The notes under the pieces are model-generated. The model did no database searches, was not told where the DNA came from, and worked only from the letters and a program-made list of their open reading frames with translations. A DNA stretch of 32,156 nt. It comes from Rhodanobacter sp. Its GTDB lineage: Bacteria > Pseudomonadota > Gammaproteobacteria > Xanthomonadales > Rhodanobacteraceae. The number at the start of each line of letters is the position of its first letter. Positions within the stretch are counted from its first letter, which is position 1. Positions 3,603 through 32,156 of this stretch are shown here, piece by piece. A program made the translations under genes and the position numbers. The stretch covers positions 1 to 32,156 of the forward strand of contig DAIDKO010000007.1 in the NCBI GenBank assembly GCA_027450005.1. Reading direction: 5' to 3'.

Positions 3603-3738
3603 GCGGAGCTCCAGGCGGCGACGATGCGTACGAGCGTAGCGCCAGCCTGCGATGCATGCACCTGACTTTCGGCACAGGCTGAACCGGGCGGCCGGCGCGC
3701 TCGGCTATGCTCGGTCTTTTTGCCGCCGGGAACCCACC

Positions 3739-6162
3739 ATGCGTCGTACCGCCTTTGTCGCCGCGCTCCTCTTCGCCGCCATGCCCGCGCTGGCCGGCGA
3801 CCTGACGCTGGAGCAGGTCATGGCCAATCCCGACTGGATCGGCCACCCTGTCGAGAGCCCGTACTGGAGCGTGGGTGGCCACCACCTGTATTACGCGCTC
3901 AAGCGCGACGGCGACAGCGTGCGCGACCTGTATCGCGTGGACGCGGCGAACGGCACCGGGGCCAAGCTCGATCCCGCCGCGATGGCGCAGGCCGACGGCC
4001 CGGCGGTGTTCGACCGCAGCCACACGCATGCCGCCTTCATCCTGCACGGTGACGTGTTCCTGGTGGACCTGGCCAGCGGCCGCCGCGTGCAGGTGACGCG
4101 CTCGCCGCAGGCCGAATCGTCGCCGCAGTTCTCCGCCGATGGCCGCACGCTGCAGTTCCGCGACGCCAACGACTGGTACGACTACGACCTCGCCAGCGGC
4201 GTCGTGTCGCCCGCCGCCATCCTGAAATTCGCCGACGACCCGCAGGCAAGGAAGCCCGATGCGCTGGAGCGCCGGCAGCTGCGACTGTTCAGCACGCTGC
4301 GCGAACTGAAGGCCGACCGCGATGCGCAGCAGGCCCACTAGCGGATCCTGGAGGCGGCCGACCCGAGTCGTGCGCCACGGCCTTTCTGGCTGGGCGACAA
4401 GGTCAAGCCGGTGGATACCGAACTGTCGCCCGACGGCCGCTGGATGCTGGTGGTCACCGCGCCCGCGCAGCACGACGACGGCAAGGCGCCAGACGTGATC
4501 CATTACGTCACCGACTCGGGCTACACAGAGGTGCAGAAAGCGCGCACCTACGTGGGCCGCAACGCCCCCGCGCCGCAGTCGCTGCTGCTGCTCGACCTGT
4601 CCGCGCTCAAGGTCTGGCCGCTCTCCACCGGCACGCTGCCCGGCATCAAGGACGACCCGCTGAAAGTGATCCGCGCACAGACCGTGGCCGCGCTGGAAAA
4701 GGCCGGCCACGACGACGAGGCCGAGGGACTGAAGGCGCCGGCGGTACGCCCGGTGACCATTGCGAACGACGGCAGCGGCGGCGGCATCGTGTGGAGCGAC
4801 GACGGTGAGCAGGCCGCCGTGCAGCTGCGTGCCATCGACAACAAGGACCGTTGGATCGCCAGCGTCGATTTCGCCAAGCACGCGCTGGTGCCGCAGGACC
4901 GCCTGCACGACGACGCCTGGATCAACTGGAGCTTCAACGACTTCGGCTGGGAGAAAGACAACCGCACGCTGTGGTACCTCAGCGAGGCCAGCGGCTGGTC
5001 GCGCCTGTATGCAAAACCACTGGACGGCAAGGCACGAGCGCTTACCGACAACCACCGCTTCGAAGTCAGCATGCCAGCGCTCAGCCCCGACGGCCGCTGG
5101 TTCTACCTGCTGGCGAACAAGGTGGCGCCGTATAGCTACGACGTCTACCGCGTGCCCGCCGGCGGCGGTTCGCTGACCCGGGTGACGCACTACGAAGGCG
5201 TGGACGGCTTCATGCTGTCGCCCGATGGCAACCGGCTCGCCGTGCTGCACTCGGCGCCGTACCTGCTTGACCAGCTCGCCGTGCAGGATGCCGCCGGCGG
5301 TATGCCGCGCGAACTCACCGACACCATGAAAAGCGCGTACACCGCGCATCACTGGATCCAGCCACAGTTCGTCGAGGTGCCCTCCTCGCACGGCGCCGGC
5401 GTGGTCTACGCCAAGTACTACGGCCCCGCGAACGAGGCCGACGCGCCCGCCTCGCACCCCGCGGTGATCTTCGTGCACGGCGCCGGCTACCTGCAGGATG
5501 TGTCCAAGCAGGAGACCTACTACATCCGCGAACAGATGTTCCACAACCTGCTGGTGCAGCAAGGCTACGTGGTGCTGGACATGGACTACCGTGGCTCCGC
5601 CGGCTACGGCCGCGACTGGCGCGACGCGATCTACCGCAACATGGGCCATCCGGAGCTCGAAGACCTGCTCGACGGCAAGGCCTGGCTGGTCAAGCGCCAC
5701 GGCGTCGACCCCAAGCGGGTGGGCATCTACGGCGGCAGCTACGGCGGCTTTATGACCGAGATGGCGCTGCTGCGTGCGCCGGGCCAGTTCGCGGCGGGCG
5801 CCGCGCTGCGCCCGCCGGCGGACTGGTCCACCTACAACGACGAATACACCTCGAACATCCTCAACAGCCCGCAGCTCGATCCCGAGGCCTACAAGACCAG
5901 TTCGCCGATCGAATACGCGCAGAACCTGCAGGACCCGCTGCTGATCGAGCACGGACTGATCGACGATAACGTGATGACCAGCGACTCGATCCGCCTGTAC
6001 CAGCGCTTCATCGAACTGCACAAGAAGAACTTCTGGATCTCGCTGTACCCGCTGGAGCGCCATGATTTCGAGCACGCGGCCGACTGGTATGACGAATACC
6101 GCCGCATCGACGAGCTGTTCCAGACCTACGTGAAGCCGGTCGAGGCCGGCAGCGGGAACTGA
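3739..6162 (+). pseudogene. Secreted S9C/DPP-IV-like peptidase interrupted by in-frame TAG
   Basis: The reading frame from ATG 3739 to TGA 6162 would encode about 807 residues, but codon 201 (4339-4341) is TAG: DAQQAH-stop-RILEAADPSRAP. The frame is otherwise uninterrupted. Residues 1-20 are a signal peptide ending ALA-GD. WD40/TolB-like propeller strands follow (SPQFSADGRTLQFRD, LSPDGRWMLVV, SPDGRWFYLL, LSPDGNRLAVLH), then a complete catalytic domain with Ser667 in GIYGGSYGGFMTEM, the Asp pair 742-743 in HGLIDDNVM and His775 in LERHDFEH. All triad residues are intact, so a single base change (CAG to TAG is simplest) inactivated it. Internal initiation, for example GTG 4411, would give a protein without a signal peptide and with a broken propeller, so restored function is unlikely. 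It forms a divergent pair with the intact S9A gene. Annotating it as two genes would be misleading. Confidence 0.82.
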
Positions 6163-6291: not shown

Positions 6292-9200
6292 TCATCCCGG
6301 CAGCGCCGGCACCTGCTTCGCCCGCTCGCGCTGACGCCTGATCTCCGCGCGCAGCGCCTTGAGCCTGGCCTTGCGCTCGCGGCGGTCGTGCTGCCACAGA
6401 TACATCGCCGGCGTGCTGAGCAGGGTTAGCAGCTGCGACACGAACAAGCCGCCCAGGATCGCGATGCCCAGCGGCTGGCGCATCTCCGAGCCGGTGCCGA
6501 AACCGATCGCCAGCGGCAACGCCGCGCCCATCGCCACCAGCGTGGTCATGGTGATCGGGCGGAAGCGCACCAGCGCCGCCTCGCGGATCGCCGCCGGCGC
6601 GTCCAGCCCGCGCTCGCGCTCCGCCACCAGGGCGAAGTCCACCATCAAGATCGCGTTCTTCTTCACGATGCCGATCAGCATCAGCACCGCGATCACCGAC
6701 ATCACGGTCAGCTGCGTGTGGGTCAGCAGCATCGCCAGGAAGGCACCCATGCCCGCCGCCGGCAGCGTCGACAGGATGGTCAGCGGGTGGATCAGGCTCT
6801 CGTAGAGGATGCCCAGCACCACGTACATCGCGCCGATCACCGCCAGCAACAGCAGCAACGAGTTGGTGAGCGCTTCCAGCAGGTTCTGGTTCTCACCGGT
6901 GTACTTCTTCTGCACGCCAGGCGGCAGGTGGGCGGCGAAGATCGCCTGGTCCACCAGCTTCAGGCCATCCGCCTGGCTCACGCCATCGGCCAGGTTGTAG
7001 TTGATCGACGCAGACTCGACCTGGTCGTAGTGGTGGACGCTGACCGGCGCGATTCGCGACTCCATGCGCGCCACCGCGGACAGGGGGATCATGCTGCCCT
7101 GCGTATTGCGCACGTAAGTGTTGAGCAGGGTGTACGGGCTCAGCGTGCCGGCGGTATCCGAGGTCAGCACCACGCGGTACTGATTGATGTCCGAATAGAT
7201 CGTCGAGATCGGGTTTTGGCCGAAGGCGTCGTACAGCGCGTTGTCGATCTGGGCCATGTTGAGCTGTAGTCGTGCAGCGGCGGCGCGATCGACCTCGAGC
7301 ATCTGCTGCTTTCCGATGCTGTCGAAACTCGAGGTGACGTCGCGGAATTGCTTCATGCCGCGCATCACCCTTTCCAGGTCCAGCGTGGGCTGCTGCAGCG
7401 GCGTCCCGCTGTTGCTGGTGAGCTGGAACGAATACCGGCCCACGTCGCTGTTGCCGCCACCGCCCATGTTGATGAACTGCTGCGCGGTGAGCGTCACGTC
7501 GAGGTCCGGCACGTTCTTGAATTTCTTCGCCAGCCGGTCCACCACCTGTTGCGCAGAGACGTGTCGTTCGCCGGGCTTGTTGCCCAGCGGCTTCAGGTCG
7601 ATGAAAAGGTTCGCCTGGTTGGCGACCGACCCCGGGCCGCCGCCGATCGATGCAGTGATATCCAGTACCGCCGGATCGGCGTGGATCTGCGCCACCACCT
7701 GCTGGGTGCGCTTCATCATCAGGATGGGCGAAATGTTCGCGTCGGCGGTGATGTTGGCGTTGATCAGGCCGGTGTCCTCCTTCGGCATGATGCCGCCGCC
7801 GGCGGTCATGCCGACCAGCACCGCCAGCACGATGGTCAGCACCAGCAGGATCGGCGGTTGCCAGCGCATCAGCCGGCGATGCTTCATCGCCCAGTCCAGC
7901 CCTCGCTCGTACAGGCGCAAGAACCCTTGGTCGAAGCGCTCGGCCCAGCGCTCCAGCCGGCCCGGCCGACGCACCGCATGCAGGTCGTCGCCGGCCAGCC
8001 AGCTGCCGCACAGCGCCGGCGTGAGCGTGAGCGAGACCAGCGCCGAAATCACGATGGTGGCGATCAAGGTCACCGAGAACTCGCGCATGAGCAGGATGAA
8101 AATGTTGTTGCCGAACACCATCGGTCCGAACACCGCGATCAGCGACAGCGTGATCGAGATCACCGTGAAGCCGATCTCGCGCACGCCGGTCAGCGCAGCT
8201 TCCAGCGCCGGCATGCCCTGCTCCATGTGGCGCACGATGTTCTCGATCACCACGATCGCGTCATCCACCACGAAGCCCACGCACAGCACCAGCGCCACCA
8301 GCGAGAAGATGTTGAGGGTGAAGCCCAGCGCCCACATCACCACGAACGCGCCGGCAAGCGACAACGGTACGCTGAACATCGCGATCAGCGTGGGCCGCCT
8401 GCGACGCAGGAACACCAGCATCACCAGCGCCACCATCACCACGCTCATCAGCAGCGCCACCTCCACCTCGTGCAGCGCCGACAAGGTGGTGGGCGTGAGA
8501 TCGAAGATCGGCGTGATCTTCACGTCCGCCGGCAGCAGCTTGCGCAATCGCGGAAGGCGCGCGCGGATCGCCTGCACGGTGGCCACCGCGTTCGCTTCCG
8601 GGCGCTTGGTGATCCGCAAAACCACCGCGCGATGCTCGTTGAACCAGGCTGCGGCGTACTTATCCTGCTGCCCATCGGTGACGGTGGCCACGTCGGACAG
8701 GCGCACGGGCACGCCGTCGTGGCTGGCGATCACCAGACGGGCAAAGTCCCGCGCGGTATGCAGCGCGTCGTTCGCGGACACCGTCATCTGGGTGGAACCA
8801 TCGCCGATCGCGCCCTGCGGCGAGGTCACGTTGGCCGCGCGCAGCGCGTTCGCCACCTCGTTCGCGGTGATGCCGGCATGCGCCAGCGCGGCGCTGTCCA
8901 GCGCCACCCGCACCGCGTGCGGCGCACCGCCGCCCACCTGCACCAGCGCCACGCCGGGAATCTGTGCGACCGCCGGTTTCAGCAGCGTGTCGGTGAGGTC
9001 GTAGAGCTTGTCCGGCGGCAGGCTGGTCGAGGTCAGCGACACCAGCAGGATGGGGATCTTCGAGCTGTCGGCCTTGAAATAGACCGGCGGGTTGGGAAGC
9101 TGCGGCAAGTCGGGCAACGCGGCGTTGATCGCCGCCTGCACGTCACGCGCCATCTCGTCCGGCCGGCGGCCGAAATCCAGCTGCAGGAAGATCTGTGCCC

Positions 9201-30757: not shown

Positions 30758-31207
30758 TCAAAGCACCTGCTCGTACATCGCGTAATGGCAGCGACGCATG
30801 CCGAGCCGCTCGTAGGTCGCCTGGGCGCGGCTGTTCTCCGTCTCCACGTACAGGCGAAGGCTCGCCGCCTTGGCGGCGCGGGCGCGGCGTTCCACCTCCG
30901 CATACAGCGCGCGGAACACGCCGTCGCGGCGCGCCCCGGGCACCACGTACACGCTCTGGATCCACCAGTAGTCGCCGTTGCGCCAGTCGCTCCATTCGAA
31001 CGTGACCAGCAGGCTCCCCACCGCCTCGCCGTCGCGCTCGGCGACCAGGTAAAACCCGCGCTGCGGATGCTCGAACACCGCGCGCACGCCGCGCTCCAGC
31101 ACCGCCGCATCGAGCTCGAGGTGTTCGGTCTCGCGCGCCATCGCAGCGTTCCAGGCGCTCAGCGCAGGCGCATCGGCAACGGTGGCAGGGCGGATCGACA
31201 GTGTCAT
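30758..31207 (-). CDS. GNAT-family N-acetyltransferase
   Basis: 149 residues from ATG 31207 with GGAA eight bases upstream. The longer frame to 31432 reads through the repeat region and is not credible. The fold order fits GNAT enzymes: MTLSIRPATVADAPALSAWNAAMA (strand 1, helix 1), RGFYLVAERDGEAVGSLLVTFEWSDW (strands 2-4), WWIQSVYVVPGARRDGVFRALYAEVERRARA (strand 4, acetyl-CoA pyrophosphate loop R-R-D-G-V-F, helix 3) and SLRLYVETENSRAQATYERLGMRRCHYAMYEQVL (motif B). The loop R-x-x-G-x-x has Phe where Gly or Ala is usual. It transfers acetyl from acetyl-CoA to an amine of unknown identity. Cytoplasmic. It stands alone between the convergent unknown gene and the repeat-bearing gap. Confidence 0.88.
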   Translation of the reverse strand: MTLSIRPATVADAPALSAWNAAMARETEHLELDAAVLERGVRAVFEHPQRGFYLVAERDGEAVGSLLVTFEWSDWRNGDYWWIQSVYVVPGARRDGVFRALYAEVERRARAAKAASLRLYVETENSRAQATYERLGMRRCHYAMYEQVL

Positions 31208-31523
31208 TTCGGCGTTTCCGGTCGAGGGCGGGGCCTGCATGGTAACGCGCATCACGGATGCAACGGCACCACTCAGTGGGCCGGGCGCATGCATGTTGGG
31301 AACGCGAAATTTCATCTGCGTGTTGCCAACGAACTGACCATGCGTTGCCAGTACAGTTGACCACGAGCGGCACAGAACTTGACCGGCATCGCCAACCAGC
31401 TGACCATCGGCTGAGGGGCGCTGGTCGAGCACAACCGACCGGCAGCAGCCCGAAGCGGACAGGTATGGATTAGGTAGGGAACCCAGCTACAGGATCTATC
31501 TCGCGATTCGACGGGGGGCTACG
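31208..31523. other. 316-base gene-free junction region
   Basis: No coding sequence is supported on either strand: frames crossing it lack ribosome sites and protein-like sequence. It contains the YTGACC repeat cluster (31323-31410). GC content falls across its right half into the next gene. It probably marks the border between the conserved chromosome and an accessory segment. Confidence 0.5.
31323..31410. repeat. Four imperfect direct repeats around YTGACC, about 22 bp apart; possible IS end
   Basis: The core YTGACC begins at 31334, 31357, 31379 and 31400 (spacings 23, 22, 21). Flanking bases partly repeat too: GCCAAC or GCCAGT before copies 1, 2 and 4, and CAGAA before copy 3. Regular short repeats of this size at an element edge resemble the multiple terminal repeats of IS21-family insertion sequences (transposase-binding sites). 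No transposase gene is visible, so this would be a remnant or the end of an element lying outside. A regulator- or replication-protein-binding iteron array is an alternative. Confidence 0.45.
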
Positions 31524-32156
31524 ATGCGGACGTTGCTGGCTGGACGCGAATTGCAGATCGGCGTCGCCGCGCTTCTTCTTGTCTCGCTTGCCGACTGGCC
31601 CTACGGCTTTTATGGATTCCTGCGCCTAGCAGTATGCGCAGCGACCTTAATCTTGGCGGGGCGAGCATCACGCAACGGTCGCCCATGGTGGGCAGTGGCC
31701 ATGGGAGGTGTCGCGATTCTCTTCAATCCCATATGGCCCGTGCATTTGGTGCGTCTCGATTGGGAGCCAATTGACCTACTTACCTCTGCCGCGGTCGCTA
31801 TCTGCCCACCCGTAAAACTATCTAGTAATCCTACTGATGTACCTGCATCGCAACCGACGTCGATCACAAAGCCAAGAGCGGCGTCTGCAAGATCTGATCC
31901 GTTGGCTAGCTTTTTCCGGTTACTCCCCGCCATCTTCAAAGCACGATCGCGGCAATCGAGTGCCAAGCTGATACAGCAAGCGGACCTTGCAAGGTTTCTG
32001 GTCAGGCACGCATTGATGGAAACGTATCAAACGTTGGGGGAGTCGGCAGACAAGCACGCCAGCGAGATCGCTGGATATTTGTTCAACGATCCAATTGAAG
32101 AGAGCACTAAGAAAAGCCTGTTTTGGTCTGCTACGAAGATTGAGGCGATGTTGTGG
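31524..32156 (+). CDS. Membrane protein with cytoplasmic C-terminal region, truncated by window end
   Basis: An open frame of 211 codons from ATG 31524 (GGGGGG seven bases upstream) runs off the window with no stop. N-terminal hydrophobic segments lie at about 10-23, 30-46, 56-68 and 84-95. The pattern WPYGFYGFLRLAVCA, then ILFNPIWPVHLVRLDWEPIDLL, resembles the small DUF6804-type membrane module (from memory). A Ser/Thr/Pro-rich linker (about 98-125) leads to a charged, probably helical cytoplasmic part (KLIQQADLARFLVRHALMETYQTL, ADKHASEIAGYLFNDPIEESTKK). Codons such as CTA, TTA, AGA, ACT, TCT and AAA are frequent here and rare in the neighbours, so base composition is clearly different and points to horizontal acquisition. 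Function unknown. A membrane module fused to a cytoplasmic domain beside a likely IS remnant would fit an accessory or defence locus, but that is speculation. Confidence 0.7.
   Translation, partial: MRTLLAGRELQIGVAALLLVSLADWPYGFYGFLRLAVCAATLILAGRASRNGRPWWAVAMGGVAILFNPIWPVHLVRLDWEPIDLLTSAAVAICPPVKLSSNPTDVPASQPTSITKPRAASARSDPLASFFRLLPAIFKARSRQSSAKLIQQADLARFLVRHALMETYQTLGESADKHASEIAGYLFNDPIEESTKKSLFWSATKIEAMLW

Follow-up and report, generated by a model that had tools for sequence, protein, structure and literature searches.

A gene at the end of a Rhodanobacter contig was proposed, in a reading made from the sequence alone (hereafter the sequence-only reading), to stand at the start of a possible island and to open into an undescribed accessory system. 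Does an island begin here, and by what route might its first gene have arrived? The stretch of DNA analysed (hereafter the window) is the entire contig C7, 32,156 bases long, from a draft genome of 2.9 Mb in 164 contigs that is 87.7% complete. The answer developed below, to which a probability of roughly 0.6 is given, is that the gene encodes a horizontally acquired, membrane-anchored fusion protein and lies in a variable integron slot. It is a genuine accessory gene of which only part can be read, and does not yet amount to a new system. New here are the integron parts in the equivalent slot of sister genomes and the occurrence of DUF6804 genes in attC arrays.

A truncated gene of foreign composition

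The gene (Table 1) has an ATG start and runs for 211 codons without a stop, its frame remaining open to the final base of the contig, so that the sequence-only reading was right to call it cut off. Apart from 14-base pieces, the last 100 bases of C7 have no match elsewhere in the own genome, and a continuation contig was not found. Lower GC and different codon use had also been reported, and both are borne out: GC is 54.8% and GC3 58.3%, below the 16 other window genes measured (63.9-72.8% and 84.7-91.4%, respectively). The contig-wide GC minimum in 633-bp windows (0.547, start 31520) coincides with the gene, and among windows of this size ending before 31253 the lowest value is 0.605 (mean 0.687). 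The foreign composition of the gene is thus supported.

Table 1. Coordinates of features at the end of the window, with the strand and the kind of evidence for each.
Feature	Position	Strand	Basis
GNAT acetyltransferase gene, conserved slot border	30758..31207	-	profile and homology
Border of variable slot (range where homology to 11 same-genus flanks ends)	31176..31253		nucleotide comparison
Four degenerate repeats about 22 bp apart, YTGACC in each	31322..31412	+	pattern scan, shuffles
Truncated gene: DUF6804 membrane module, linker and orphan helical part	31524..32156	+	ORF, profile search, composition
DUF6804 domain, residues 10-92, four predicted transmembrane helices	31551..31799	+	PF20619 match; structure model
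Ser/Pro/Thr-rich linker, about residues 97-124	31812..31895	+	sequence by eye; low pLDDT
Charged, helical, probably cytoplasmic part (start), residues 125-211, end missing	31896..32156	+	sequence, model

The membrane module noticed at the N-terminus does belong to DUF6804, a family of unknown function: the PF20619 profile matches at E 6.7e-22 and 77.9 bits, well above the cut-off of 27. The window protein shows the multi-helix small membrane domain and the conserved positions of this family, residues R34, A64, N68, P69 and W80 being invariant in 23/23 alignment rows and present here. An AlphaFold2 model of the visible protein (mean pLDDT 77.8, pTM 0.52) predicts helices at residues 7-20, 27-50, 54-66 and 77-93. 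From the even number of helices and the basic loop that links helix 2 to helix 3, an N-in, C-in topology is suggested, in which both ends of the protein would face the cytoplasm. The Ser/Pro-rich linker of the sequence-only reading is plainly visible in the sequence and has pLDDT values of 56-63 across residues 101-130. Beyond it the model contains long helices in a block of pLDDT 54-85. This C-terminal part (about 87 residues) is charged and unlike known families, as had been claimed, with no Pfam family, no plasmid match and only two weak matches among 299 genomes besides its own; no convincing relative was found. Predicting its structure had been suggested as a check, and a helical model was obtained, which for this part alone is of low confidence (mean pLDDT only 54.6).

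A fold search with the model found nothing at E <= 0.001 among PDB or viral entries, and rows from VIA-align reached Z 12.2 with four-helix bundles, the first two of them designed proteins, a likeness that may reflect merely a common helix arrangement. No solved structure was found by sequence search with the protein, PHROGs and NCBIfam profiles did not match it, and PADLOC models gave 0 families at E <= 1, so that membership of a known anti-phage defence family was not found. Most of the DUF6804 relatives found are proteins of 93-132 residues lacking a second domain, whereas the window protein continues into the linker and an unrelated part that is cut short by the contig end. Extra soluble parts do occur elsewhere, in an Acidobacteria MAG (L090), in viral contigs (L105-L107) and on a Pseudarthrobacter plasmid (L150), where a Pro/Ala-rich linker joins the two. 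In L090 and L150, unlike the window protein, the extra part is N-terminal, and that of L105 has no similarity to the C-terminal part of the window protein (E 8.5). The fusion architecture in general is not unique to the window protein; its C-terminal part has no relative among those found.

Could the frame be open by chance, in foreign DNA that is decaying? Such a non-functional relic would fit a gene with no readable partner that is not kept in sister species, and a scan of positions 31150-32156 finds no promoter-like site (terminator-like sites number two, with 0.6 expected). It sits poorly with 211 open codons and with five residues kept as in the 23 aligned proteins, and is considered highly improbable.

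A variable slot that holds integron parts in sister genomes

Presence and absence across relatives had been proposed as a further check. The window protein has no match in any of 14 same-genus genomes (G008, G011 and G014 are only 85-92% complete), whereas its GNAT neighbour is matched in 12/14 at E <= 2.4e-42. A syntenic gene conserved in all close relatives with equal base composition, which would have spoken against a foreign origin, is therefore not what is seen. In all 11 flanks that reach past the GNAT gene, nucleotide homology stops within the border range of Table 1, and DNA from 31208 onward, compared with 4/14 same-genus genomes, gives a best E no better than 0.02. More widely, the PF20619 profile matches 4/147 genomes of the family and 3/369 of the class, the own genome being counted in each. 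A tRNA-associated island was considered and dropped, as a scan finds no tRNA in the window.

The draft is metagenome-like and its composition and homology shift at one place, as they would if assembly or binning had joined Rhodanobacter DNA at about 31,250 to the DNA of another organism. The closest genome (G008) is 95.7% identical over 3,000 bp and its contig breaks inside the GNAT gene, so the join cannot be confirmed there. Against such a chimera, the shift coincides with the border at which 11/11 relatives diverge, a known type of variable site here, and an artefact is judged very unlikely.

What occupies this site in the relatives? Integron parts (intI and attC) are found in the equivalent slot of 5/11 same-genus genomes in which the flank could be read. 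A tyrosine recombinase gene adjoins the GNAT gene in G004 and G013. That of G004 scores 448.9 bits against TIGR02249, the NCBIfam model for integron integrases (cut-off 265), and 345 bits against the narrower model NF011946, below its cut-off of 435; the G013 protein is 92% identical to it. The integrase of G007 and G010 lies beyond a large GH94 gene, which encodes 2,868 residues in G010 and has relatives by tblastn in G007, G014 and G001, and a 48-residue integrase fragment lies beyond the GH94 relative of G014. A covariance model built from 19 attC sites of one locus, a Xanthomonadales-type array (L012), detects attC sites beside the integrases (L061, L058, L062, L127, L060) and at the opposite border of the slot (L146, L147, L148); at these loci the chromosomal integron lies between a G6PD block and the GNAT gene. 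The opposite border was linked to the slot through its similarity to the G6PD block; G010, G003 and G001 each have that block contiguous with the slot, and in G013, G004 and G014 the border sits on a separate contig. In the five genomes the arrays show a GC of 0.55-0.62, similar to that of the window gene and of the preceding gap (0.605-0.614), and the draft contigs of G004, G007, G013, G014 and G008 end in or at the slot, as the window does.

Other contents also occur. A response-regulator gene adjoins the GNAT gene in G012 (by profile) and in G006 and G009 (by similarity), and G005 has different content again. The slot stretches searched in G003 and G001 gave no attC and no integrase match, which means that the variable slot need not equal an integron. 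Taken together, these comparisons point to the slot between the G6PD block and the GNAT gene as an integron hot spot in the genus. The possible island of the sequence-only reading is thereby strengthened as an accessory location and recast as a slot; the suggestion that it opens into an undescribed system finds no support, as the contig stops and no downstream gene can be read.

A similar arrangement is described in a study of Xanthomonas, where intI is mostly located downstream of ilvD, intact intI has been lost in many species, and a COG category could be assigned to only 11.9% of the orthologous cassette genes (PMC12444791). The chromosomal integrons of Xanthomonas and the slot of the sister genomes are alike in having an integrase and attC arrays, and the likeness extends to cassette genes mostly without known function and to lineages without an intact integrase (PMC12444791). 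They differ in position, mostly downstream of ilvD (PMC12444791) as opposed to between the G6PD block and the GNAT gene, and no integron part is seen in the window itself. The slot is thus a parallel case at another site.

Cassette, transposon or another route

The own genome (87.7% complete) contains no integron integrase above cut-off and none matching that of G004 at E <= 1e-20. The opposite slot border was not found in it either, the best match being 74% over 334 bases on contig C41 and paralogue-like. Is the window gene nevertheless a cassette? In the strict sense it does not qualify as one on the visible side, neither attC nor attI having been found upstream of the gene. The core GTTRRRY is absent from the + strand of 31000-32156, and its complement has a single occurrence, within the gene at 32081. 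With filters off, the attC model, which derives from one Xanthomonadales-type array, scores no higher than 4.4 bits in 31150-32156; with default filters its single match in the window scores 13.5 bits at 4143-4199 (E 0.93-1.6). The attC that a cassette carries itself would fall downstream, and hence beyond the contig end. A decayed intI in the gap (31201-31560) was sought and dismissed, the best tblastn E being only 0.21, and single-strand folding of the gap is unremarkable (z -0.60). The gene could be a former cassette left stranded here, or could have arrived by another route.

One such route is suggested by the DNA directly before the gene, where the sequence-only reading saw an IS-like repeat cluster. 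The repeats are real. YTGACC occurs at 31334, 31357, 31379 and 31400 (spacing 23, 22 and 21), and the three-copy pattern has just two overlapping matches in the entire window, both in the repeat stretch, and none in 100 shuffles. Among 149 loci it is found in eight, all containing the window's own repeat stretch, and is absent from the other 141. The best pair of 17-mers in the repeats is identical at 15/17 positions, which was reached in 0/200 shuffles of the gap.

Ends of transposons can bear repeat arrays of this kind. The four evenly spaced, degenerate 22-bp units could then be transposase-binding sites that form the iterated end of an element with the DUF6804 gene as its cargo, independently of any integron, and the lack of a detected attC in the visible part would agree with this. 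What weighs against a transposon-borne island is that the repeats were not found again in the own genome (best E 0.02 over 38 bases) or in plasmid records at E <= 0.1 (a laxer limit gives 15 scattered matches, best E 0.3), and that no transposase is readable before the contig end. A transposon or IS origin is held to be unlikely. The link of the repeats to an insertion sequence was not confirmed, and the claim that such an element opens the region is unsupported, no similar element having been found. Possible identities for the repeats include a transposon end and an operator, among others.

For the preferred reading, an acquired fusion in the variable integron slot, the window would hold the first part of an accessory gene in a chromosomal slot that contains an integron in several sister species. 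The gene would have reached the slot by cassette traffic, or have been stranded there upon loss of the integron. The four-helix DUF6804 domain would form an inner-membrane module, both ends of which are predicted to be cytoplasmic; a flexible linker would follow, and then a helical part in the cytoplasm that the module would anchor at the inner membrane.

DUF6804 genes in attC arrays and phage-like contigs

Relatives elsewhere indicate the company such genes keep. A search by peptide pattern confirmed no whole-protein relative in genome_contigs or viral_contigs, and one plasmid record was found. With a four-protein alignment (A1), 16 loci were found in genome_contigs and nine in viral_contigs; further viral_contigs scans added one DUF6804 locus, L152. 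Annotated phage records gave no DUF6804 match with the window protein as query, and a word search for DUF6804 in the available library of papers returned no mention.

DUF6804 genes lie among attC sites at four other related loci (L010, L012, L094 and L099). In L012 a DUF6804 gene and a partner are framed by attC sites at 7645-7717 and 8336-8408, and in Pseudoxanthomonas broegbernensis (L094) the DUF6804 gene has attC sites at 5622-5697 and 6335-6410. A Lysobacteraceae MAG array (L010/L085) has intI within the stretch and attC sites of 23.5 and 24.7 bits nearest the DUF6804 gene; in Lysobacter antarcticus (L099) the nearest pair of sites is weak, at 21.0 and 17.1 bits, in an otherwise stronger array. 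No attC was found at a further Rhodanobacter locus (L011) or at 16 other DUF6804 loci, non-Xanthomonadales or viral, where the Xanthomonadales-type model may miss other types.

A second small membrane protein adjoins DUF6804 in 7/27 loci, three of the seven being seeds of the model used. Independent loci with the partner gene number 4/24, of which two have weak scores (E 4.8e-13 and 2.6e-6), and L105 and L107 are near-duplicates. No Pfam family was found for the partner protein (two sequences tried), and a plasmid search with it gave no match at E <= 0.001. It is possible that DUF6804 and the partner form a two-gene unit. The two genes stand side by side, in either order, at L012:7645-8408, L010:6833-8053, L099:5844-6614, L114, L086, L101 and L104. 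The DUF6804 gene of L086 (Methylobacter MAG) is 78% identical to the Lysobacteraceae MAG copy and has the same partner beside it; either recent transfer or a mis-binned contig could account for this.

In two viral contigs the pair is opposite in strand to the virion genes, lying between the head protease and portal genes in L101 and beside virion structural genes in L104. Its placement in both resembles that of a phage accessory gene (moron). DUF6804 is also found among genes for a DNA methyltransferase, a radical SAM protein and a terminase small subunit (L109), and L103 gave matches to two phage families without known function; PHROGs profiles were applied to L101, L103, L104 and L109.

What might these proteins do? 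Carriage in integron arrays and among virion genes, sometimes with a partner, fits an accessory function at the envelope such as phage exclusion or abortive infection. In the window protein the soluble part would sense or signal and the membrane module would alter the envelope, leading to superinfection exclusion or abortive infection. The idea that DUF6804 serves as a mobile membrane module in phage or envelope conflict is tentative and of low probability. A bolder version is more doubtful still: DUF6804 and its partner would be an undescribed two-gene membrane system, mobile as integron cassettes and phage accessory genes, that prevents phage from entering or kills the infected cell, and the window gene would be a one-protein variant with the membrane module wired to its own cytoplasmic sensor. 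The occurrence of this membrane domain without known function in integron arrays and phage-like contigs indicates where its role should be sought; the window gene, being only partly visible, carries modest weight of its own until the remainder is read.

Elsewhere in the window, frames 3652-4341 and 4411-6162, adjacent and on one strand, resemble on visual inspection the two pieces of a single interrupted S9-type peptidase gene (3652-6162).
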